This document shows positions 11,174 through 21,128 of a stretch of 64,000 nucleotides of DNA, one piece after another (the stretch's first letter is position 1; each line of letters starts with the position of its first letter). The DNA is from an uncultured bacterium (GTDB lineage: Bacteria > Verrucomicrobiota > Kiritimatiellia > RFP12 > UBA1067), in the NCBI GenBank assembly GCA_902764415.1, contig CACWVU010000017.1, forward strand, positions 1-64,000. Direction: 5' to 3'. Below the pieces are notes generated by a model. That model was not told where the DNA came from and did no database searches. It was given only the letters and a program-made list of their open reading frames with translations. The position numbers and the translations under genes are program-made.

Positions 11174-13177
11174 TCAGCGCACGATATAGATGAAGCCGCT
11201 GGATCTGACGGGCTGGTCGGGGAGATAGACGGTCTCGGACCACTTGCCGTCCGCCGTGTAGAAGCGGACGTAAACGGTGCCGCGCACAAGGTCCGGCGTC
11301 GCGAACTTCGCCGTCTGGGCGTTTTCCGCAAACGCGCCGAGCCGCTCCGTGTGCGCCCATTCTGCCGCGTCCATCGCGGCGTAATCCGCCCCCCACACGG
11401 CATGGACATCGGTCTCCGCCGTCGAGGCCACATCGCGGCGCAACGTCACCGTCAGCGTCCGGCCGACGAAACTCACGGAGTCGATGGTCAGAATGCCTCC
11501 GATGTTAACCGCAGAACCTGCGAGGAACGGCGTCGCGCTGCCGTTCGGGCACCAGACGCCGGCGACAAGATCGTAGAGACCATAGGTGCCGTCCGAAATT
11601 TTGCGAACCGGCACGAAGTCGTGTATCAGCTCGCGCGGGGATGCGGAGTCGTTGTAGAACTTGAGGGAGTAAAGGCGCATGACGCCAAACTGGTCCGGAT
11701 CGTTCCCCGGCCCGTTGCCGGCGGCGAACACGAAGACGTTTGGCCCGGAGCTAATCGTTGCCTGCGTCACGTTCTGGATATTGGTCGTCGCTCCGCAGAT
11801 CGCGCGATAGTTGCTGCTGCCAGTACTCTCATCAAGCGTGATCTGCATCCTCTCGTTTCTGGTCAGCTTGGCATTGTAGGCAGGCATCGTCGCATTGTAC
11901 CAGAACAGTCCCGTGGGGAATGTGCCGCTGCCGCCAGTGCTCGTCGAGATCAGCAACTTGGCGTTCTGATCCTTGACGACAGACGACAAGTAAACGCCAT
12001 AGCCGGTATCGCGATCGTCTGTGTCGTGGAACGCCCCCTTCTGGAACGAACTGTAGCCGATGAAATCAATGGCGAAGCCCAATCTGACACTGTTCGGCGC
12101 AAAGCCGCAGTCGATATACTGGTGCCCCGTGTCCGTCGATTCAATGTATTCAACCGCCTCAAACCCGCCAGGCAACACGCCGGCTGGCATGACGTCAAGT
12201 GGCGTTGAAAACTCAACTACTTCACCCAGCTCCACCGTTCCGTTCGCGGCAACGATGCCAAACTGGAGCGTGTAGTCGGCTCCAAGCCGAAGACCGGGGA
12301 TTGTGGTTTCGTAGAGTCCAGTGAATTGCGTGGCACGCGCCAGCCAGTTCGTGTCGGCGTGGTCTCCCGTGCGGTATGTGACGAAAATATCGTATGGATC
12401 GACTTCCGCCCCCGCCGGGAAAATCGACGCCTTCGCCGTCGCCGAGCCATCGGCGTTCGGCGACACGGGGCTTGTCTTGTACAGGCAGACGTCGCGCCGA
12501 CCGGCTTCGTAGGGTCCTATCAGGCCCGACATGCAGATTTCGCCAAGCTGGACGTAGTCGTTGTTGCCGGTCGATCCCGTGAAAGCGAAACGAACATGCC
12601 GAAACGCCACTGGCAGCTCAAGCGAGAAATCGGCCGTGTAGCAGCCGTTCACCGGGCCATAGAAGGAATACGTCAACCCGGAATGGCTGTCAACCAGCAC
12701 CCAATCGTCGTCCGAGGACGGGTTTTCCTTGTCGCTGACCTTGATCGTCCACGCAGCAGGAAGACGGTTGGGGATTTGCCACCCGCCGGCCGTCGTCACA
12801 TTGGCCATGCGAAAGCCGTATTGTCCCAAGAAGAGCGGACGGTTTCCAAACGCCGCCGGATTGAAGGACACCGTGACCGTCGCGCCTTTTGACAAGACGA
12901 AAAGCACGCGGCCATTTTCGGAGTCAGCCTTGTTGTTGTCCGCAGTCAGGTCGCCGTCGAAAAGCTGCATGACGGCGCTCAGGCTATCGCTGGCCGAATG
13001 TGCGCCGGTGTACGCCACCGTAAACGGCGACTCGACTTCGCTCTGCCGCACCGTCTCCATGATGTCGATCACGGCGAATTCGTTGGTGCTCGCCGCCAGC
13101 GCGGCGGATGCGCCGCAGAGAACCGCCGCGGCCGCAACCAATTTCGCCGCATACTTCTTGACTATTGAACCATTCAT
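11174..13177 (-). CDS. Nested product: secreted lectin-like surface protein from an internal start
   Basis: In-frame ATG (13175-13177) eight nt after AAGGGGG on the minus strand, followed by a classical Sec signal peptide with two Lys, a 16-residue Ala/Val/Leu core and an ASAALA cleavage site. It gives a 667-residue secreted protein. Such a signal peptide makes little sense in the middle of a fusion that is already past a membrane segment, so independent translation is likely. Function unknown; the VEYIES-TGHQYID block recalls concanavalin-like domains of gut surface and phage proteins. No sortase or PEP-CTERM anchor was seen at the C-terminus. Confidence 0.6.
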   Translation of the reverse strand: MNGSIVKKYAAKLVAAAAVLCGASAALAASTNEFAVIDIMETVRQSEVESPFTVAYTGAHSASDSLSAVMQLFDGDLTADNNKADSENGRVLFVLSKGATVTVSFNPAAFGNRPLFLGQYGFRMANVTTAGGWQIPNRLPAAWTIKVSDKENPSSDDDWVLVDSHSGLTYSFYGPVNGCYTADFSLELPVAFRHVRFAFTGSTGNNDYVQLGEICMSGLIGPYEAGRRDVCLYKTSPVSPNADGSATAKASIFPAGAEVDPYDIFVTYRTGDHADTNWLARATQFTGLYETTIPGLRLGADYTLQFGIVAANGTVELGEVVEFSTPLDVMPAGVLPGGFEAVEYIESTDTGHQYIDCGFAPNSVRLGFAIDFIGYSSFQKGAFHDTDDRDTGYGVYLSSVVKDQNAKLLISTSTGGSGTFPTGLFWYNATMPAYNAKLTRNERMQITLDESTGSSNYRAICGATTNIQNVTQATISSGPNVFVFAAGNGPGNDPDQFGVMRLYSLKFYNDSASPRELIHDFVPVRKISDGTYGLYDLVAGVWCPNGSATPFLAGSAVNIGGILTIDSVSFVGRTLTVTLRRDVASTAETDVHAVWGADYAAMDAAEWAHTERLGAFAENAQTAKFATPDLVRGTVYVRFYTADGKWSETVYLPDQPVRSSGFIYIVR

Positions 13178-13990
13178 TGCATTTTCCCCCTTGTTAGTGT
13201 TAAAATTATCAGTTACCTCGGCAACAACCTGGGGACTGTCCCCATCTGCTCCCGTTGTTTGCGATTCTTGATTAGCGGATAATCCTGTCAAAGACCCATC
13301 TGAGACCTCCGTGCTCTCCGCGGGAGCCGCTTCTGCCGCGGGTTCTGCCGCGGTAAACAGCGAGGGCGCAAGCCCGACGGCGACCGCCGCGGCGTAGACG
13401 AGCGATCCGCCGAAGAGTACCGCGGCAATTGCAAGCGCGGCACGGCCCATCATCTTGCCGAGCCGCTTGGCCAGCACCTTGCGGGCATAGTACAGGTTGC
13501 TCCGCACCGAATCCGGCGAACGGCGGATGATTTCCGCGATCTGGCGGATGGGAAGCGACTCGAAATAGCGAAGCATGATGATCGAGCGCACGTCAGGGGG
13601 CAGGCGGGCGATGGCGCTGCGGACCAGTTCCGCGTCGGAATGGGCGAGAATCGCCTCGTCGGTCGAGTTGTCGACCGCCCCAAGCTCGGCCAGTCGCTCG
13701 GCGTCGGTCTGGTCGACGTAGACCGTGCAGGCGCGCGCCTTGCCGCGGATGGAGTTTTGATAGTGGTTGCGGACGGCGGCACGGAGCCAGGCGCCGGTCT
13801 TGTCCTCGGACGGCAGTTCGTCCTCCGGCTTCGCGAGATACGTCTCGACGGCCTTCATCGCGAGGTCTTCCGCAGTCTGGTCGTCGCCGCAGAGCCGCTT
13901 CGCCTCGGCGAGCAGCATGGAATAGTACCCGCGCATGAGACGCAGCGCCTCACGCTCGATGTCATTCCTCACTTCTCTGATAAATCCCAT
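11174..13990 (-). CDS. ECF sigma factor fused through a membrane segment to a secreted surface protein
   Basis: One uninterrupted 938-codon frame. Residues about 20-95 are sigma region 2 (YYSMLLAEAKRLCGDDQTAEDLA) and about 125-180 region 4 (AIARLPPDVRSIIMLRYFES, then the helix-turn-helix IAEIIRRSPDSVRSNLYYAR). A hydrophobic stretch follows at about 183-207, then a Pro/Ala/Glu/Ser/Thr/Gly-rich linker. At residue 272 a second Met begins a perfect signal peptide (MNGSIVKKYAAKLVAAAAVL, ending ASAALA). The remainder (about 640 residues) is beta-rich with a lectin-like VEYIESTDTGHQYIDCGF block and the tail SSGFIYIVR. The N-terminal part would act in the cytoplasm, the C-terminal part outside. An internal Shine-Dalgarno and a possible internal promoter suggest that the second part is also, or only, made separately. 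A 5' leader of about 210 nt precedes the gene. Confidence 0.8.
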   Translation of the reverse strand: MGFIREVRNDIEREALRLMRGYYSMLLAEAKRLCGDDQTAEDLAMKAVETYLAKPEDELPSEDKTGAWLRAAVRNHYQNSIRGKARACTVYVDQTDAERLAELGAVDNSTDEAILAHSDAELVRSAIARLPPDVRSIIMLRYFESLPIRQIAEIIRRSPDSVRSNLYYARKVLAKRLGKMMGRAALAIAAVLFGGSLVYAAAVAVGLAPSLFTAAEPAAEAAPAESTEVSDGSLTGLSANQESQTTGADGDSPQVVAEVTDNFNTNKGENAMNGSIVKKYAAKLVAAAAVLCGASAALAASTNEFAVIDIMETVRQSEVESPFTVAYTGAHSASDSLSAVMQLFDGDLTADNNKADSENGRVLFVLSKGATVTVSFNPAAFGNRPLFLGQYGFRMANVTTAGGWQIPNRLPAAWTIKVSDKENPSSDDDWVLVDSHSGLTYSFYGPVNGCYTADFSLELPVAFRHVRFAFTGSTGNNDYVQLGEICMSGLIGPYEAGRRDVCLYKTSPVSPNADGSATAKASIFPAGAEVDPYDIFVTYRTGDHADTNWLARATQFTGLYETTIPGLRLGADYTLQFGIVAANGTVELGEVVEFSTPLDVMPAGVLPGGFEAVEYIESTDTGHQYIDCGFAPNSVRLGFAIDFIGYSSFQKGAFHDTDDRDTGYGVYLSSVVKDQNAKLLISTSTGGSGTFPTGLFWYNATMPAYNAKLTRNERMQITLDESTGSSNYRAICGATTNIQNVTQATISSGPNVFVFAAGNGPGNDPDQFGVMRLYSLKFYNDSASPRELIHDFVPVRKISDGTYGLYDLVAGVWCPNGSATPFLAGSAVNIGGILTIDSVSFVGRTLTVTLRRDVASTAETDVHAVWGADYAAMDAAEWAHTERLGAFAENAQTAKFATPDLVRGTVYVRFYTADGKWSETVYLPDQPVRSSGFIYIVR
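13264..13291 (-). promoter_or_regulatory. Possible internal promoter inside the sigma-surface linker
   Basis: Minus strand perfect -35 TTGACA (13286-13291), 16-nt spacer, -10-like AAGAAT (13264-13269). It would place a start site about 80 nt before the internal ATG at 13177. The region is unusually AT-rich for this genome. The -10 matches only four of six bases. Confidence 0.35.
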
Positions 13991-14386
13991 GCCCTTAACA
14001 TTTTAGTGTCAGGCAAACGGCAAAATGTGAGAAAAAAATTTTCGCGGCACATCCGCCGCGTCAGCAGTTGCCGGGGACAAAATGGCCGGACCCTTTTGTT
14101 CCTCTCAGGCTTCCATCCGACGCCTCCCATGTCCGCAATGTCTCCACTGCGCGGGAAATCTGGCTTGCCTCGGCGGACTGGGGCAGTCCCTTTCCGCCTA
14201 AGCGCACGTATTATACCATAAATTCAGGTCTGCGGACGGTGATCTCGCGAAAACCGCCGGCCGCAGGCCTGTCCGGGCTCTCTCAGCCGGATACTGCCTA
14301 ATGGCACACTAGTATACGGCGGGGAGTGGAAGAACTGACAGGAAAGTGTTTGAGTTGAGAGGGTTTGAGTTGGGAGGCGGATAGCG
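13991..14386. other. Intergenic region between hipA and the sigma-fusion gene
   Basis: About 400 nt without a gene. 13991-14203 is the presumed 5' leader of the sigma-fusion mRNA. 14210-14215 is its -10 box. 14216-14386 follows hipA and holds two copies of a 15-nt unit GTTTGAGTTGRGAGG (14348-14362 and 14363-14377). No strong terminator or ORF with homology was seen. Confidence 0.6.
14210..14215 (-). promoter_or_regulatory. Extended -10 promoter of the sigma-surface fusion gene
   Basis: Minus strand TTTATGGTATAATACGTGC: TGG plus TATAAT. The leader to the ATG at 13990 is about 210 nt, the longest in the window, leaving room for post-transcriptional control. Confidence 0.65.
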
Positions 14387-15667
14387 CTATGCTTCCAGCC
14401 GGCGCGCGATCGCCTCGGCAAGCTCGCCTCGGACACCGGCCTCGGACGCAAAGCGCGGCCAGTCTCGGACGGCGTTCTTCACTTCGTCAAGGACTGCGCG
14501 CGCCCTGCGCTCGCGCATGTTGGCGAACGTCGCCAAGGCGAGGATGTCCGCGTCCTCGATGCCGATGCGCTTGCCGTTGACGGACATCTGATGCCGCGAT
14601 GTCCAGTCCCCTTCCGGATTGTGCGCATAGCAGACGTCGTATGCCGGCGCAAGCGCCCATTCGCCGCGCCGGTCCATCAGGTACGCGATGTTCTTCACGT
14701 GGTCGTCGCAGTTCCACGCAAGGACGTTGAACGCCATGCGGCGGAATAGCTGCTCGTCCGCCCGCGCGTCGTTCACGACCTGCCGCGTGACGCGAAACGC
14801 CTGTTCGTAGGAATAGCCGGCGGGGTCGTTGAAATCCATGTGCGCCATCGCCCCCAGCGTCTGCGCATGCAGCTTGCCGCCGTCCGGAAGCCGGTCGAAC
14901 CGCCGCGTCATGAAGTGCCGCCCGTCCCAGAGACGGCATTCCGTCATCTCTATCCCGGCGGCGCGGGCCATGAGATGGTATGCATACTCGACGCGGCCAT
15001 AGCCCCACTTGTCGTCGCCCTCCCTGTCGCCGTTGCCCGCGATTCCGTCGAACTTGACGAGCCAGTAGCCGAATCCTCCGGGAAGCGCAATCTGGCCGGA
15101 GCGCACTTCGCCCGTCGCCTCGTTCCAGCCGATGAGCGCCTTCGCCCTGGCGCCGCCGGCGGAAGATCCGACCCTGAGGATGGAGGCGTACCGCTTCATG
15201 TCGGGGACGAGCCTGGCGACGGACTCGGTCCGCACCCTGAGCACCTCGGCTGCCAGTTCGGCAAGGGCGTCGACATGGAGCTCCTCCGTCTTGTCCTCGT
15301 CGTCGAACAATGCCGGCCTGTACTCAAGCGCCCCCATCCCGCGAACGCCGGTGTAGCAAAGGCGCTCAATCGGCGTGAGGCTTTCCGGCAGCCGCCCCTG
15401 CGCCTTCAGCCACGCCCCGATCACCGCGTTGCCGAACTTGTCCGGAAGCGAATCGGACAGCATTCCCGGAAGCCCGTGGAACGAGACCTGCGGAAGCGCG
15501 GCAAAAGAATACGTTCCGGCGCCTACGGGCATCATCAGCGGCGATGGCTCGATGCCCGCATCAATAAACTCCCGGTCGTATGCAAACGACGCACAGGACG
15601 ATCCCTCGGTCCTTGACACAACGCCGATGCGCCGTCCCCAAAGATAGACCTCCGCCGCTTCGCTCAT
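14387..15667 (-). CDS. hipA: HipA-family serine/threonine kinase toxin
   Basis: 426 residues from the ATG that overlaps the hipB stop (ATGA). HipA features in order: N-terminal strand VYLWGRRIG, the LSDSLPDKFGN block, SSAGGARAKAL (Gly-rich loop with the autophosphorylatable Ser equivalent), the catalytic motif NCDDHVKN and the metal-binding PAYDVCY. HipA kinases phosphorylate an aminoacyl-tRNA synthetase, typically GltX, and stop growth; HipB neutralises them. All key residues appear intact, so the toxin is probably active. The gene is the second of a two-gene operon and convergent to nothing; the plus-strand peptide locus starts on the far side of hipB. Confidence 0.88.
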   Translation of the reverse strand: MSEAAEVYLWGRRIGVVSRTEGSSCASFAYDREFIDAGIEPSPLMMPVGAGTYSFAALPQVSFHGLPGMLSDSLPDKFGNAVIGAWLKAQGRLPESLTPIERLCYTGVRGMGALEYRPALFDDEDKTEELHVDALAELAAEVLRVRTESVARLVPDMKRYASILRVGSSAGGARAKALIGWNEATGEVRSGQIALPGGFGYWLVKFDGIAGNGDREGDDKWGYGRVEYAYHLMARAAGIEMTECRLWDGRHFMTRRFDRLPDGGKLHAQTLGAMAHMDFNDPAGYSYEQAFRVTRQVVNDARADEQLFRRMAFNVLAWNCDDHVKNIAYLMDRRGEWALAPAYDVCYAHNPEGDWTSRHQMSVNGKRIGIEDADILALATFANMRERRARAVLDEVKNAVRDWPRFASEAGVRGELAEAIARRLEA

Positions 15668-15999
15668 TGGTCTGTCCCCCACATATTAGCCACCGCTCGC
15701 CGACGCCGCGCGCGCTTCGGCAATGTTCGCCTTGCGAGGATGTCCTGCGGCGACAACTGCACCTCCGGGAGCAGGGCCTCAAAGCCATCCGTCAGCGACA
15801 ATGCGCCGCAAACGGCGAAGAAGACATCAAGCCGAAGTCCTCCAGCACCAGACTCAAGCCGCTCAAGCGAGCGCTTGGACACCCCGGCTCGCTGCGATAG
15901 TTCTGCCTGCGTTATGTTGCGAGCAAGCCGGATTTGCGCAAAACGCCTGCCCGCCTCTCGTAAAGCCTCGTCCAAAGTCATTGCGACATTGAATTTCAC
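15664..15999 (-). CDS. hipB: HipB-like helix-turn-helix antitoxin
   Basis: 111 residues from a GTG with AAGGTGG four nt upstream; an ATG at 15981 is the alternative start. Residues about 15-65 form an HTH_3 domain (RFAQIRLARNITQAELSQRA, then GVSKRSLERLESGAGG). The C-terminal tail (LARRTLPKRARRRRAVANMW) is basic. As in other hipBA loci the antitoxin gene comes first and overlaps the toxin gene by ATGA. The product should bind its own promoter and hold HipA inactive. Confidence 0.82.
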   Translation of the reverse strand: MKFNVAMTLDEALREAGRRFAQIRLARNITQAELSQRAGVSKRSLERLESGAGGLRLDVFFAVCGALSLTDGFEALLPEVQLSPQDILARRTLPKRARRRRAVANMWGTDQ

Positions 16000-16012
16000 A
16001 ATTCCACCTTTC

Positions 16013-16065
16013 TGGCGAATTACATCTTGATTACGCCTATTACTCGCCAACAACTGCGTATTATA
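16013..16065 (-). promoter_or_regulatory. hipBA promoter and possible operator arms
   Basis: The -10 TATAAT is at 16060-16065, in TGTGGTATAATACGCAG. Downstream, inside the leader, lie TGGCGA (16013-16018) and TCGCCA (16044-16049), an inverted pair 25 nt apart that could be HipB half-sites. The arms are only 6 bp, so the operator part is a guess. Confidence 0.5.
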
Positions 16066-16153
16066 CCACAATCCTCCGCAGTTGCGCAAGGGGCACGAGC
16101 CAAGTTGTCAATAGGCGTCAGATTGGCGGGGATTGGACGTATATGAGCATGGT

Positions 16154-17809
16154 ATGAAAACTGACAAGCATAGCAAGAGGAAGTTCGCGCGGACGAGATT
16201 TCTCGCGGCGGTGGTGATGTCTTCGCCGGCGGTCGCATTCGTCTATTCGCCGCTACTGGCCGGGATGACCGTCGTCGGCATCGTCGTCCCCTTCGCGATG
16301 GGGCGCTTCATCGACGCGCTCGTGGGCGGCCAGCCGCCGGTTGCTCCGTTCGCGGTCCTCGCCGCGCTGCTGGCAGCCCGAGCCGTCCTGACGCCCTGCC
16401 TCCAGCGGTTCGCCATCTCCCGCGCCAGGATGGTAGAGATACGACTCCAGGAGCGCGTCCTCGCCGCTGTCATGGACTTTCCTCCCGCCGAGCTCTCGTC
16501 GCTCGCCGACGGATCGCTCGTCGCCAAGCTGACGCGCGACGCGTACGCCGTCGGCGGGTTCGTGAACGGACTCTACCCGCGGCTGCTGACCGCCGTCGTC
16601 ACGATGGCCGCGGCCGGCGTCGCGCTGCACTCGCGCTCGCCCGCGCTTTCCATCGCCTTCATGGCGTTCATCCCGCTCGCAATCCTCCTTTTCGTCCCCT
16701 TCGCGCGGCACTTCGCGGCCGACTCACATTCCGTGCGCACGAAGAGCGACGTCGCATTTGCCGCGCTCTTCGACTTCTTCCGCTCGCTCCCCTTCCTGCG
16801 CACGCTCGACGCCGAGCGCCGCTTCGCCGAGGCGCCGCGGCAGTCGCTGCAGGAGCTCAAGGACGGCAACTGCGCGATGGACAGGCTGACGGTCGCGTTC
16901 GGCGCACTGCTCGGCGCAACTTTGGTCGTGGGGGAAATCGGCGTCCTCGGCGTGGCCGGCGCGCTCGCCGCCAGGGGCGCGATTCCGGTCGGGGACGTCG
17001 TGGTCTACCAGATGCTGTTCCTCGCGGCGATGCAGTCCGTGCAGGGCATCGTCTCGCTGCTGCCTGAGACCGCGGCGCTTCGCGAAGGCGTCGACTCGCT
17101 GAACGAAATCCTCGGCCACGCGCCGCCGCGCCGCGGCGGACGCCGGATCGACGCCGTGGAGAGCGTCGAGTTCCGCGGCGTCACGTTCGCCTACCCGGGC
17201 GCGGACGCAAAGCCAGTAGTCAAGGACTTCTCCACCTCCTTCCGAGCCGGGAGAATCGTCGCGCTAGTCGGCGCCAACGGCTCCGGGAAAACGACCCTGT
17301 TCAGGCTGGCAACCGCGGCGCTGGCGCCGCAGGCTGGCGAAATCCTCGTCAACGGCTCGCCCATCGCGGCACTCAACGATGGGTTCTTCCGGCGAAGGCT
17401 CGGGATCGTCTTTCAGGACAGCCTGCTCGTCTCCGGCACGGTGCGCGACAACATCACGTTGCGGGATCCCGACTTCACGGCAAGCGACATCGACGAGGCA
17501 ATGACGCTGAGCGGGCTAAAGGATGTAGTCGGACGGCTCCCGGACGGACTCGACACGCGCGTCGGACTCGGGGGACAGTCCCTGTCTGGCGGGGAGATGC
17601 AACGCCTCGCGATTGCCCGCGCGCTTGTCCGCCGGCCAGGCATCCTCGTCCTCGACGAAGTCACGAACCATCTCGACGCGGAGGCGCGCGCTGGCTTCGG
17701 GAAACTCCTGCGCCGACTCGCTCCTGGGCGCATCGTCCTCGTCGTCAGCCACGATCCTGCCATAATCAAACTTTGCGACGAAAAGATTTCCTGTCAGATT
17801 TACAAATAG
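16154..17809 (+). CDS. ABC exporter (fused permease-ATPase) of the peptide locus
   Basis: 551 residues. The N-terminal half has about six hydrophobic segments; the C-terminal half is a nucleotide-binding domain with Walker A GANGSGKTT (about 372-380), Q-loop GIVFQDS, signature LSGGEMQRL (about 476) and Walker B ILVLDEVTNHLD. It starts directly with the membrane part, so there is no C39 leader peptidase domain. A TTG at 16133 with GGCGGGGA just before it is an alternative start. The gene points the same way as the peptide and ATP-grasp genes that follow, 73 nt away. It most likely exports the modified peptide, with leader removal by another protease. Confidence 0.85.
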   Translation: MKTDKHSKRKFARTRFLAAVVMSSPAVAFVYSPLLAGMTVVGIVVPFAMGRFIDALVGGQPPVAPFAVLAALLAARAVLTPCLQRFAISRARMVEIRLQERVLAAVMDFPPAELSSLADGSLVAKLTRDAYAVGGFVNGLYPRLLTAVVTMAAAGVALHSRSPALSIAFMAFIPLAILLFVPFARHFAADSHSVRTKSDVAFAALFDFFRSLPFLRTLDAERRFAEAPRQSLQELKDGNCAMDRLTVAFGALLGATLVVGEIGVLGVAGALAARGAIPVGDVVVYQMLFLAAMQSVQGIVSLLPETAALREGVDSLNEILGHAPPRRGGRRIDAVESVEFRGVTFAYPGADAKPVVKDFSTSFRAGRIVALVGANGSGKTTLFRLATAALAPQAGEILVNGSPIAALNDGFFRRRLGIVFQDSLLVSGTVRDNITLRDPDFTASDIDEAMTLSGLKDVVGRLPDGLDTRVGLGGQSLSGGEMQRLAIARALVRRPGILVLDEVTNHLDAEARAGFGKLLRRLAPGRIVLVVSHDPAIIKLCDEKISCQIYK

Positions 17810-17882
17810 CCTTCGTAATCTATTATGCAACGGGCGAGTGTCCGCTGTATTGGTTAACCAAAACAAAAAGGAAACAACAAAA

Positions 17883-18011
17883 ATGACACCTAATGACATC
17901 GTGACCGACATCAGCACGGTCAAAGTCGACAACATCAACTGGCGCACTTATGCAACGTACTGCATTAGCGGCGGCCAGACGCAAGTCGCCGACGATCAAA
18001 GCTCCTACTAA
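17883..18011 (+). CDS. Candidate RiPP precursor peptide (42 residues)
   Basis: ATG preceded by AAGGA 10 nt upstream, stop TAA at 18009-18011. The peptide starts MTPNDIVTDISTVKVDN, continues INWRTYATYCISGG and ends QTQVADDQSSY. The front half reads as a leader; a Gly-Gly at 30-31 could be the leader/core border. The tail has hydroxyl residues (Thr33, Ser40, Ser41) beside Asp37-Asp38, the chemistry needed for Ser/Thr-to-Asp ester links by a graspetide ligase. The microviridin core consensus T-x-K-x-P-S-D is absent. It lies between an ABC exporter and an ATP-grasp ligase on the same strand, and its DNA is far more AT-rich than the genome. No homologue is known to me; the role rests on context, the ribosome site and composition. 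Confidence 0.72.
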   Translation: MTPNDIVTDISTVKVDNINWRTYATYCISGGQTQVADDQSSY

Positions 18012-18033
18012 ACAACCAGACTGAGAGTCTAGT

Positions 18034-18067
18034 AAGAGTTGGGGCTGGATTGCCAGCCCCAACTCTT
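18034..18067 (+). promoter_or_regulatory. 15-bp perfect hairpin between peptide and ligase genes
   Basis: Arms 18034-18048 (AAGAGTTGGGGCTGG) and 18053-18067 are perfectly complementary with a 4-nt ATTG loop. It starts 22 nt after the peptide stop and ends 20 nt before the ligase ATG. There is no T-tract after it, so it is more likely a partial terminator, RNA-processing or mRNA-stability element that keeps precursor message in excess over ligase message, a common arrangement in RiPP operons. Confidence 0.75.
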
Positions 18068-18087
18068 CGACTAAACAACGAGAAATC

Positions 18088-19023
18088 ATGATTTTCACAT
18101 TCACATTCAGCCAAGACGAAACCACAGACATTGTCATGAAGGAATTGGACACAAATGATGTCCTGCGATTCAACATCGACAAGCCGGACGATTTTGCATG
18201 GGATTTCCACAACGGCGGATTTCGCATTGCAGATAAAACTTGCGGCAAAGAAATCACCGAAAAAACCTTTACTTCATTCTATCTCCGCAAGCCGATGTAC
18301 TTCGACCTAATCGACGTGCCGAAACACGGCTGCGTGGAAAACTGGCGGCGAGAAGAAACAGACGAGCTAATGAGGGACTTCTTCCGCGAATGTCAGCATC
18401 GTGGACTCGTCACACTCGTTCGCTCTCAGGACAACAAATACGGCAAACTGCGGCAGCTTCTCGTCGCACAGAAATTTTTCCGCGTCGCCAAGTGGCACTT
18501 CTTCCATGGCGAGCTGCCGGACGAGCTGAAGCGCGGCAGATGGGTGGTGAAGTCGATGACGCAAACGTCTATCGGGGAAAACAAGGTTTTCTTCGTCAAG
18601 GAAGTCGACCCTGCCGCGCTGGACCTCTCTTATCCGTGGTTTGTGCAGGAGCGGATCAAGGGAGAAGAGGAAGTGACGGTGGTCTACGTCGACGGCAAGA
18701 CATACGCGGCAAGTGCGCCGCGGGAATCGTTCGGCGGAGAGGACTCGCGGAAGTCGCTGCTTGAGCATCCGGTTGCATGGCCGCGATGCGAGCTGACGCC
18801 GGAGGAGGAGCGCGCGATACGCGGCTTCATGGACGAGACGGGCTACCGGTTCGGGCGCTTCGACTTCATCCGCAAGGACGGCGAGCTGTGGTTCCTGGAG
18901 CTGAACCCAAACGGACAGTGGGCGTGGCTCGACGAGAAGAACGAGCACGGGCTCGTCTCAATGGTCGCGGACGCGATCAAGGCCGAAGACCGGGAGCATC
19001 GGGCGCGTCCATCTCTTCTCTGA
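18088..19023 (+). CDS. ATP-grasp peptide ligase of the graspetide (MvdC/MvdD) type
   Basis: 311 residues. The N-terminal domain has the family pattern of these maturases (TTDIVMKELDTNDVLRFNID, then SFYLRKPMYF). The ATP-grasp core includes KYGKLRQLLV, RWVVKSM, PWFVQERI and EEEVTVVYVDG; the C-terminus has FDFIRKDGELWFLELNPNGQ followed by WAWLD (about 262-283), the N-P-x-G-Q-W motif characteristic of MvdC/MvdD-like ligases, with Glu and Asn as metal ligands. Such enzymes form ester or amide rings between side chains of a precursor peptide. It probably acts on the 42-residue peptide upstream. Its last 47 nt overlap the end of the convergent sigma gene. First ~350 nt are AT-rich, later codons are GC-rich, hinting at acquisition followed by amelioration or recombination. 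Confidence 0.85.
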   Translation: MIFTFTFSQDETTDIVMKELDTNDVLRFNIDKPDDFAWDFHNGGFRIADKTCGKEITEKTFTSFYLRKPMYFDLIDVPKHGCVENWRREETDELMRDFFRECQHRGLVTLVRSQDNKYGKLRQLLVAQKFFRVAKWHFFHGELPDELKRGRWVVKSMTQTSIGENKVFFVKEVDPAALDLSYPWFVQERIKGEEEVTVVYVDGKTYAASAPRESFGGEDSRKSLLEHPVAWPRCELTPEEERAIRGFMDETGYRFGRFDFIRKDGELWFLELNPNGQWAWLDEKNEHGLVSMVADAIKAEDREHRARPSLL

Positions 19024-19591
19024 CCTTCGCGGCGGTTTCGCGCAGCTTCGCGGTGAGGCGGGCGCGGATCTGGTAGAGGTTGTCGCGCGAGATGCCGTAG
19101 AGCTTCATCACCGTCTCGGTGTCCTGCCCATCGACTGCGCTCGCCACGAACGCCGCGTAGTGGTCGGGGCGGACTTCCGGCTTGATGCGGCGCAGCGCCT
19201 CCTCCAGCGCGGCGGCCTGCCATTCGCGCTCGGAGAAGCCGTTGTCGTCGCCAGGCTTCGTCTCTAAGACGTCCTTCAGCGCGGCGTCGCGGTTCCTCTC
19301 CCGAAACTTGTCCTTAACGCGCCAGTGGACGAGTCCAGTCAGGTACGACCTGAACTTGCCCTTCGCGCGGTCGTACTGGAACGTCGGGAGGTTCCGCGCG
19401 AGGTCGGAGAAGACGACCTGCAAGACGTCGTCCGCGTCATCCTCCGATAGCCCCTTGGAGCGCGCGATGGAGAAGATAAACCCCGCATAGAGGTCGAAGA
19501 GCCGCTGCCAGGCGGCCTGGTTGCCGGTGTCTGAGACCGCCCTGATGACGCTGGAGCGCGTCGATTCGTTATTGAAGTGTCTGTAGGTCAT
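18977..19591 (-). CDS. ECF sigma factor paired with a membrane kinase
   Basis: 204 residues. Region 2 spans about 25-95 (WQRLFDLYAGFIFSIARSKG, DDADDVLQVVFSDLARNL, FRSYLTGLVHWRVKDKFRER), region 4 about 135-190 with a C-terminal helix-turn-helix (VMKLYGISRDNLYQIRARL). The pattern YDRAKGKFRSYLTG is typical of ECF sigmas of Planctomycetes and Verrucomicrobia. The gene starts 23 nt inside the end of the kinase gene, so the two are co-translated. Kinase-linked ECF sigmas (ECF43-like) are activated by phosphorylation instead of an anti-sigma factor; no anti-sigma gene is seen here. The 3' end overlaps the convergent ATP-grasp gene by 47 nt. Confidence 0.82.
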   Translation of the reverse strand: MTYRHFNNESTRSSVIRAVSDTGNQAAWQRLFDLYAGFIFSIARSKGLSEDDADDVLQVVFSDLARNLPTFQYDRAKGKFRSYLTGLVHWRVKDKFRERNRDAALKDVLETKPGDDNGFSEREWQAAALEEALRRIKPEVRPDHYAAFVASAVDGQDTETVMKLYGISRDNLYQIRARLTAKLRETAAKVREEMDAPDAPGLRP

Positions 19592-21128
19592 GCTCCTCTC
19601 CTCTCAATTCCCTTCTTGCGGCATCAAAGATATAAACCTCATTTAGGGTTATTCCAAAGCCGTTGTCAAGGTTAAAGTCTCCTTTCCAATCAGAGCCAGG
19701 CTCCCATTTTTCATTTCCATACGCCATTCTCGCAATCCCATAAATTTCCTTTTCAACATCAGTCCTCTCGCGGTCCAATTTACGCGCTTGCGCTATTAAC
19801 TCTTCCACGTCATTTTTGACTGTCCCATCAATTTTCTCTATTCTTTGGTTGAACCTGATTCGTATCTTGCAAATCCTTACGGCGAGTTCTCGCAATTGCT
19901 TTTTCAGTTCAAGAAGCCGTGGTTTGCTTTGTTGCAAAACATCCTTCCCGGCACGAACATCAATAGCCGGAATCCCCCATGAAACTCTAAACTCATTAGT
20001 TTGTTTAAGTTTAATGTCGTCAGTTGCAATGTCAATCTCAGAATATAGCCTTTCAACTATTCTATGTAAACAGAATATTTCCGTTGTCAAATTGTCAATC
20101 CAGTTTCTGGCGTCTGCGAGATACGATGCCAATTGCGCTTGGTTCACGACGCCTTTTGCCGGAGTGATTTCTTTGGATATCTTGGACACCTCGTCGCTCA
20201 TTCTGTCATTGCTAACGACAAGGTATCCAATAAACGCGACTACGGTTATTGCCGCCGCATAAACAATTGCCCTGGTCGCCCTCGAACCGAACTTCGACAC
20301 GATCTCCGTCCTAAGACGGAGCTCCTTGAGGTCCTTCAAGAGCGCCTTGGCAGACTGGTAGCGTCGGGATGGTGTTGGATCAGTTGCCTTGTTGAGGATA
20401 CGCCACCAGGCGGGGAAGAACCTTGATCCCGTATCCGCCTCCAGCGCAGGGCCCTTGTCCAGATCCTCGATTTTCCGGCCAAAGCTCGCTGCCTTGAGCG
20501 TGAGGCCAAGGCTATAGATGTCTCCGGCGGCATCCGTAAAGTTCTCTGGCGGAACATAGCCTGGCGTTCCGACGAGCGATACAGCCTGAGACTCCTCGAC
20601 GACAAGTCCCGGATCGGAGAGGACAGGGCGACCCCGGACATAGATCACATTCCCGGGCTTGATGTCTCGGTGCAGCAGATGATGGCGCTGAAGTGTCTCA
20701 AGTCCTTTGGCGAGCGCAATGCCAAGCTTCACGGACACGTCGAGCGGCAGGGCTTTTTCGCCGTCGATGACACTGGCGAGAGTCTTTGGACGATAATCCC
20801 GGCCGCCGGAAACTCCCTGCCCGAATTCGTCATCCGCAAGCTCCATGACCGTGTAGAAACCCCACTGCTCCTCCGCCAGCTCCAGCATCCTGACGAGCCC
20901 ATCCTGTGGCGGAATTGCGCTATACAGCCTCGCCCCGCGCAGCTCACGCTCGTAGCGTTCCTCGCCGATGGTCTCGCGTCGGCAGACCTTCACCGCCGCC
21001 CGTTCGCCTTTGGAGTTCACCGCGGCATAGACTACGCCATAGGCACCATGTCCAATCTCGCAGTCAAGCCGCCAGTCGCCGCAACACGACATTTCCCCGT
21101 CCAACTGTTTTCCGTCAGCTTGCTCCAT
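19569..21128 (-). CDS. Membrane Ser/Thr protein kinase with coiled-coil extracytoplasmic domain
   Basis: 519 residues. Kinase domain about 20-270: Gly-rich loop GHGAYGVV (26-33), catalytic Lys47, HRDIKPGN (153-160), GTPGYVPPE (187-195). The metal-binding DFG is replaced by DPG (172-174); Asp is kept, so activity is plausible. A single membrane segment at about 287-306 (AIVYAAAITVVAFIGYLVVS) is followed by about 210 residues of helical, coiled-coil character outside the membrane that should sense a signal. The C-terminus overlaps the ECF sigma gene. The kinase probably phosphorylates and activates that sigma factor (inference). The last half of the gene is AT-rich compared with its kinase half. 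Confidence 0.88.
   Translation of the reverse strand: MEQADGKQLDGEMSCCGDWRLDCEIGHGAYGVVYAAVNSKGERAAVKVCRRETIGEERYERELRGARLYSAIPPQDGLVRMLELAEEQWGFYTVMELADDEFGQGVSGGRDYRPKTLASVIDGEKALPLDVSVKLGIALAKGLETLQRHHLLHRDIKPGNVIYVRGRPVLSDPGLVVEESQAVSLVGTPGYVPPENFTDAAGDIYSLGLTLKAASFGRKIEDLDKGPALEADTGSRFFPAWWRILNKATDPTPSRRYQSAKALLKDLKELRLRTEIVSKFGSRATRAIVYAAAITVVAFIGYLVVSNDRMSDEVSKISKEITPAKGVVNQAQLASYLADARNWIDNLTTEIFCLHRIVERLYSEIDIATDDIKLKQTNEFRVSWGIPAIDVRAGKDVLQQSKPRLLELKKQLRELAVRICKIRIRFNQRIEKIDGTVKNDVEELIAQARKLDRERTDVEKEIYGIARMAYGNEKWEPGSDWKGDFNLDNGFGITLNEVYIFDAARRELRGEEHDLQTLQ

Follow-up and report, generated by a model that had tools for sequence, protein, structure and literature searches.

What does a reading frame of 42 codons do between the gene of an ATP-binding cassette (ABC) exporter and that of an ATP-grasp ligase in a rumen bacterium, and what turns these three genes on? 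In this work, we have addressed this question in 64,000 nucleotides of contig CACWVU010000017.1 (the window), and in related loci and genomes, which carry L and G numbers, respectively. Sequence comparison and structure modelling indicate that the cluster very probably makes, ring-closes and exports a short graspetide-type peptide. We hold it to be likely that it represents a graspetide branch, new to the sources that we checked, of Verrucomicrobiota/Kiritimatiellota-type genomes, and that it lies within the regulon of its own extracytoplasmic function (ECF) sigma factor. The preliminary description of this DNA had seen three adjoining plus-strand genes (exporter, 42-residue peptide and ligase) among minus-strand neighbours, and had taken them for a locus of the ribosomally synthesized and post-translationally modified peptide (RiPP) type with a graspetide-type ligase and precursor. 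All the reading frames were confirmed in place, and the interpretation is supported by the kinship of the ligase and by its co-occurrence with the peptide.

The ligase and its probable precursor peptide

Sequence and modelled fold both support the view that the ligase is a graspetide-type ATP-grasp enzyme. In NCBIfam, the families matched at E <1e-6 are exclusively graspetide-type maturases (TIGR04187 4.5e-22, MvdC 6.3e-17, MvdD 2.2e-9, GwsG-type 8.1e-7), at scores under their curated cut-offs. When PDB sequences were compared with a profile of 21 relatives, AMdnB (1.5e-16), MdnB (2.1e-14), CdnC (5.2e-11), MdnC (2.9e-9) and 9bou/PruB (1.2e-8) were found; nothing but graspetide ligases appeared at E <0.3, and neither RimK nor Ddl was among the seven profile matches. 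The AlphaFold model (predicted local distance difference test 89.4, predicted template modelling score 0.86) is most similar in structure to MdnC (Z 25.7), PruB (23.8), AMdnB (23.7), CdnC (23.2), PsnB (22.5), which we take to be the plesiocin ligase, and MdnB (22.4), against 18.1 for RimK and 15.6 or less for Ddl. RimK and the D-Ala-D-Ala ligases were therefore rejected as closest kin, and the placement in one of their clades that the preliminary description had named as fatal to its interpretation is disfavoured by all three comparisons. The NPxGQW ending reported there is present as NPNGQW, and the positions invariant in 29 ligases, with identity down to 25%, include K120, K155, Q187, D219, R221, D259, E271, N273, G276 and Q277.

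In a 31-row tree, whose rows were chosen by hand (17 ligases from the phylum, 13 references from plasmids and E. coli RimK), 16 of the 17 phylum ligases, that of the window included, form one clade (100/100) on a long branch, and the seventeenth, from L070, groups with the TgmB rows (84/89). Branches are long in this tree, which gives no supported placement of the clade relative to MvdC/MvdD, TgmB and GwsG. The ligase is present in 21 of the 114 genomes of the family, in 26 of the 161 of the order and, with more distant ligases included, in 13 of 387 drawn from the phylum.

Is the small reading frame its substrate? The ribosome site reported before it is there as a ribosome-site-like AAAAAGGAAAC 5΄ of the ATG. 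A profile search found the peptide in 20 of the 114 family genomes, with one match each, all among the 21 that bear the ligase, and in none of the 93 others; the sole ligase genome without it, G043, holds just a ligase fragment at a contig edge. The peptide also occurs outside the family, in G158 (L037/L059/L091), G156 (L060/L092), G157 (L061/L093) and G137 (L057/L089). Throughout family and order the 42-codon frame is kept 5΄ of the ligase in all loci that have this DNA, one copy (G030) being interrupted by an in-frame stop, so that the frame is conserved along with the ligase at this range, a point on which the preliminary description had made its interpretation depend. Because the homologous peptides that precede the ligase in relatives have the same leader and Thr/Asp core, the frame is real beyond chance. 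The more distant phylum loci are mixed: other peptides stand 5΄ of the ligase in L102, L104 and L105, and no precursor was recognised before the ligase in L103 and L106-L108. In the first three (genus g88, family f44), ligases 36-40% identical to that of the window each follow a peptide of 74-84 aa, the C-terminus of which reads ...DDWHLA or ...DDWNIC; these loci may represent a sister group of graspetides.

The precursors are 33-47 aa long, with a single core, and 20 of the 23 distinct peptides fit T-x-x-T-x-[TSC]-x(3-11)-DD; in L081 and L084 the first Thr comes one residue later, and in L100 (G030) the in-frame stop precedes the DD. T25, D37 and D38 are near-invariant, the window core has Thr22 as well, and two residues past Thr25 all 23 have T, S or C (Cys27 in the window). 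These counts leave out the fragments without a ligase start (L020, L039, L041, L062), and L021 (G056) is in the genome count and not among the 23. Two details of the preliminary description did not survive this comparison. The SSY tail, to which it had drawn attention, falls outside the positions that remain near-invariant, and the Gly-Gly that it had read as the border of leader and core (ISGGQTQ) sits inside the core and is missing from several relatives; since three core types occur between the Thr frame and the DD (e.g. FERLDD, FVGGNLTIDD and ISGGQ...VADD), we read it as a loop. At around residue 16-18 of the window peptide, an x-[GD]-[ND]-[ILV] step is the more likely end of the leader. 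Its motif M-TPND-IATDI is conserved among relatives, an agreement that in the 23 peptides is partly built in because the leader pattern served as a collection filter; the reading-frame listing and the profile search are less affected. Over leader codons 2-13, the proportion of non-synonymous differences (pN) is 0.226 and that of synonymous differences (pS) 0.476, over 210 pairs, a ratio of 0.47 that is rough because the pairs are non-independent and pS is high. A precursor with a conserved leader and with hydroxyl and carboxylate core residues is thus encoded beside the ligase, as in graspetide loci.

Promoter pattern, sigma factor and kinase

What turns the cluster on? Our results suggest that the ECF sigma factor and the Hanks-type kinase encoded next door probably do so. 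These two genes and the promoter pattern did not figure in the preliminary description. DNA alignment 5΄ of the peptide gene gave the pattern TGTCAG-N16/17-CGTA, which is also found in L037 and L060, without an overlapping exporter gene. In 376 kb of loci, [TC]GTCAGA-N13..16-CGTA has 63 matches against 1.0 expected in first-order random sequence, with 11 elsewhere and 52 at three kinds of place: before exporters of over 45% identity (16 of the 18 with upstream DNA, 6-34 nt from the ATG), before peptide genes (20 of the 21 found by script, 54-74 nt) and before a structured RNA leader (16 of 22 copies, remnants counted, 23-25 nt). In whole genomes, for which we took every sigma-bearing genome but G043 (19 of 20) and a choice of 20 from the other 94, TGTCAGATT-N13..16-CGTA has 59 matches, in 19 of the 19 sigma-bearing genomes, and 4 in 3 of the 20 chosen genomes without the sigma factor; the reversed pattern has 1 match in all 39. 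In the window genome the TGTCAGATT form matches once, before the peptide gene, the exporter site beginning with CGTCAG, and TGTCAGN16-17CGTA matches twice, both times within this island, as often as its reversed control (2). The case for the promoter is built on the loci and genome sets and not on the window alone. From this co-occurrence, we infer that the sigma factor recognises the pattern. At L079:894-2375, one locus only, a gene for a trypsin/PDZ-like protease (HtrA-type by eye) with the same ECF-type promoter adjoins the ligase; its product is possibly a maturation protease or a target.

An ortholog of the sigma factor (at least 60% identity) is present in 20 of the 114 genomes, 17 of which bear the ligase; among full-length sigma factors, those next in rank reach identities of about 30-32%. 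We mapped 22 loci that include a ligase start: 19 of them also carry a sigma homolog on that stretch and 18 a kinase match, and both are missing from the stretches of L077, L078 and L079. Both genes are convergent with the ligase in the window; elsewhere they take other orientations and lie up to about 8 kb away. In L106 an ABC gene adjoins the ligase, with sigma-like and kinase genes within a few kb, and in L107 the same is seen within about 6 kb; these two ligases are the most distant of the clade (25-29% identical), and their sigma assignments were made by reading the sequence. Since the window genome has 10 kinase-domain matches in 2.6 Mb, this adjacency in locus after locus would not be expected by chance, though the loci are related. 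The C-terminal part of the kinase varies greatly in length and sequence.

Sigma genes that adjoin Hanks kinase genes mark kinase-coupled ECF systems in the wider sense, and the window pair is of this kind. In the ECF43 group, Hanks kinases are tied to the sigma factors EcfK (with PknS, in Xanthomonas citri; PMC13147305) and EcfP (with PknT, in Vibrio parahaemolyticus; PMC8999054); in this group, the DxxD of region 2.2 is replaced by uncharged residues with a phosphorylated Thr, activation by the kinase is shown, and the gene pair lies near the system that it controls or is proposed to control, as it does here. In contrast to ECF43, 26 aligned rows of the present sigma factor keep D..D or D..E in region 2.2 (DADD...QV in the window; the E of QE is replaced, by eye), and the proposed output is a peptide cluster. 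Because of the retained DxxD, we have not filed it under ECF43; it is set apart from that group only, other kinase-linked groups being ECF59, 61, 62, 217 and 283 (PMC8999054).

Could the sigma factor and the kinase be mere neighbours, serving the RNA leader and other genes while another factor transcribes the graspetide cluster? The stretches L094-L098, where sigma factor and kinase stand beside promoter and RNA leader with no graspetide genes, would fit this, as would the few promoter matches off the island and the fact that kinase genes are not rare (10 domain matches in the window genome). We nevertheless think it quite unlikely, since exporters (16 of 18) and peptide genes (20 of 21) have the pattern before them at similar distances, and since it is seen in L091/L092 as well, free of any overlap with an exporter gene. 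Still less credit is due to the possibility, which we regard as highly improbable, that the ligase adds residues to, or links, another protein in the manner of RimK, with the small frame encoding its regulator: RimK does share the fold (Z 18.1), but six solved graspetide ligases outscore it, peptide and ligase co-occur nearly one to one, and the peptide keeps its Thr and Asp side chains with a leader pN below pS. A variant within the graspetide interpretation would let the third conserved position (Cys27; Ser, Thr or Cys in relatives) take part through a thioester or a third link. The presence of one of these residues in 23 of 23 peptides speaks for it; we hold it to be unlikely, given that the near-invariant acids number just two and that three residue types alternate at this position.

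Several observations weigh against a graspetide cluster within its own sigma regulon. The genome test of the promoter is partly circular: the pattern had been derived from these loci, and contigs with a ligase or sigma gene account for 48 of the 59 matches. On other contigs there are 11 matches in the 19 sigma-bearing genomes, compared with 4 in the 20 without the sigma factor. Within the window taken by itself, a looser pattern falls short of significance, with 3 matches against 1.14 expected, a number reached in 6 of 100 shuffles; a form with three mismatches has 3 against 1.62. No such promoter was found in the ligase loci L102-L105. Sigma factor and ligase also part company: the former occurs without the latter in G052, G089 and G108 (G029 has a 47-residue sigma fragment), and the latter without the former in G042 (unexplained), in G054 and G075 (contigs of 4.1 and 7.6 kb) and in G056 (a fragment). 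Being related, the loci are not independent; activation by a kinase was demonstrated in the ECF43 type, to which this sigma factor was not assigned, and no protease gene is conserved with the cluster. The ligase scores lie far under the curated NCBIfam cut-offs, in bits (MvdC 61.7/425, MvdD 36.9/475, GRASP_SAV_5884 78.6/350, GRASP_w_spasm 28.7/230). Finally, the leader lacks Phhx(1,2)h, its M-TPND-IATDI having a Pro followed by polar residues (by eye); this pattern, found in about half of graspetide precursors (PMC8939145), is frequent and not obligatory.

RNA elements, neighbouring genes and base composition

The features of the locus are collected in the table below. Two hairpins flank the peptide gene. 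For the 5΄ one, covariation is 0.273 against 0.211 +/- 0.018 in shuffles (none of the 500 reached this score, and slid versions gave no more than 0.101), counted without L037/L091, L060/L092, L089 and L061/L093, which differ in loop or spacing; its paired cells exceed the shuffles, which is not so for pairs with two-sided change (4, a count equalled or surpassed in 75 of 500 shuffles) or for additional pair types (11, in 360 of 500). The palindrome TTGGTTAACCAA has one-base variants in L025, L029 and L034 and is absent from L037, L060 and L061. The second hairpin keeps an unbroken stem of at least 8 bp in 20 of 21 distinct intergenic regions, and its pair types change freely; as no T-run follows it in the window, we read it as a processing or stabilising element, which may let the peptide message exceed that of the ligase.

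Table. Features of the graspetide-type locus and its surroundings in the window
Feature	Coordinates	Strand	Remarks
Promoter-like site, TGTCAGTT...CGTA	14315..14340	-	third site; before structured RNA leader, not a graspetide gene
Start of conserved RNA leader	14268..14290	-	truncated copy, 5΄ of gene 11174-13990
ECF-type promoter of exporter, CGTCAGATT...CGTA	16116..16141	+	ends 12 nt before ATG; also in 16/18 loci with upstream DNA
ABC exporter	16154..17809	+	permease and ATPase, no C39 peptidase domain (Pfam); orthologs 5΄ of ligase in relatives
ECF-type promoter of peptide gene, TGTCAGATT-N13-CGTA	17792..17817	+	overlaps 3΄ end of exporter
5΄ leader hairpin of peptide mRNA	17825..17850	+	loop GAGU (GGGU, UAGU in relatives); covariation
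Palindrome TTGGTTAACCAA	17850..17861		between hairpin and ribosome site; kept in most family loci
Putative graspetide precursor, 42 aa	17883..18011	+	leader about residues 1-17, core probably from about 18
15-bp hairpin	18034..18067	+	between precursor and ligase; structure kept rather than sequence
Graspetide-type ATP-grasp ligase, 311 aa	18088..19023	+	
ECF sigma factor	18977..19591	-	convergent with ligase gene
Hanks-type protein kinase	19569..21128	-	kinase domain, likely membrane-spanning stretch (by eye), variable C-terminal part

Minus-strand genes lie on either side of the cluster, hipA/hipB-like genes at 14387-16089 and those of the sigma factor and kinase at 18977-21128. The exporter matches ABC_membrane and ABC_tran, and a peptidase is absent from its 20 Pfam matches, in agreement with the preliminary description, which had it without a C39 protease. 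The same description had noticed an AT-rich stretch here and had taken it as a hint of horizontal transfer. The dip in composition is real (G+C 0.454 at 17750-18249 against about 0.67-0.71 in windows inside the exporter), but it is common to all 21 of the loci examined: in each of them, G+C is lower over bases 1-300 of the ligase gene than over the following 630, and the 70 bases 5΄ of the peptide gene lie under the fetched-locus averages (0.42-0.72). It is therefore a lasting property of the cluster and not evidence of recent transfer into this genome, and we have discarded that explanation.

The hipA/hipB-like pair stands between RNA leader and exporter, also in L074 and L075; in L100, where no such pair occupies this place, the promoters of RNA leader and exporter are back to back. 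The structured RNA leader is about 360-440 nt long, with an ECF-type promoter before it, and the window copy (14268-14340, minus strand) is truncated; its promoter-like site is possibly a member of the same regulon. Intact copies are found in L076, L080, L086 (two), L087, L094, L095, L096 and L097, and RNAalifold gave for 9 sequences 98 pairs, 27 of them with two-sided change in at least one. A model of its 3΄ part finds the leader in 55 of the 114 genomes, with 1-6 copies each, so the leader is not tied to the sigma factor; in the 12 copies that were read, the gene downstream varies. Rfam has no match to this leader in the window, L030, L035, L024 or L038, and we consider it a candidate family of cis-regulatory RNA. 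At the gathering score, the sole Rfam match in the window is a tRNA. Relaxing the threshold brought up a weak match to glmS (12336-12483) and, in L035, microRNA matches, all of which were taken as chance, the microRNA ones being weak matches to plant models at an inverted repeat of about 100 nt 3΄ of the ligase (L035:6128-6243). The gene at 11174-13990 (minus strand) encodes a protein of 938 aa, which has an ECF-like sigma-70 part at its N-terminus; the long region beyond it lacks a clear Pfam domain.

A proposed mechanism and its place among known systems

We propose that the kinase senses a signal and activates the ECF sigma factor, which would then fire the TGTCAGATT-N13..16-CGTA promoters of exporter and peptide gene. 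The peptide message, lying between the two hairpins, would be produced in larger amounts than that of the ligase, which follows the second hairpin. The leader M-TPND-IATDI would dock on the ligase, which would use ATP to activate Asp37 and Asp38, and these may be joined to Thr22 and Thr25 as macrolactones, as conservation and ligase family suggest, in a pairing and order to be taken as provisional. The ABC protein would export the product, and a separate protease may remove the leader near residue 16-18.

Protease inhibitors are among the known graspetides, whose core motifs include TxKxPSD, TTxxxxEE and TxxTxxxExxDxD. To our knowledge, the T-x-x-T-x-[TSC]...DD core and the M-TPND-IATDI leader of the window match none of these motifs. 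In fold and family the ligase is like those of the MdnB/MdnC/AMdnB (microviridin type), CdnC (Chryseobacterium), PsnB and PruB systems, and the short leader-core precursor beside the ligase, the Thr and Asp of the core and the ABC exporter gene in the cluster are likewise found in graspetides with solved ligases; unlike these, the present cluster has a single ligase, no C39 domain, and an ECF sigma factor, a kinase and a promoter pattern alongside. It departs from the graspetides known to us in leader and core frame, in its ligase clade and in its partnership with a sigma factor and a kinase. Makarova et al. described 174 graspetide precursor families in 2022, including a core signature, TxxxTxxDxxxxDD, that likewise ends in DD; Verrucomicrob-, Kiritimatiell-, Lentisphaer- and PVC are all absent from their main text, and a matching family may be present in the supplements (PMC8939145). 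Literature searches for graspetides with Verrucomicrobia, Akkermansia or sigma factors showed no such cluster, the sigma-factor matches being judged by title among the matches listed, and none was seen by title among the matches listed for Kiritimatiell- RiPPs and for rumen or Verrucomicrob- ATP-grasp RiPPs.

We lean towards a further-reaching reading, in which the peptides form a new class of graspetides, marked by a TxxT...DD core and a ligase clade of their own. A Hanks kinase and an ECF sigma factor dedicated to them would turn on their production through one type of promoter, which would also drive a structured RNA leader; this would be a signal-gated regulon across gut Kiritimatiellae, without counterpart in the graspetide literature examined. 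Should this hold, a group of gut bacteria that are largely uncultured would gain a graspetide branch, whose short single-core precursor would make an easy co-expression test. The natural core variants, with three loop types on the same Thr/Asp frame, would provide a ready series for studies of ring size, and the promoter pattern would tie a natural-product cluster to a kinase-coupled ECF sigma factor in a concrete way that is open to test.

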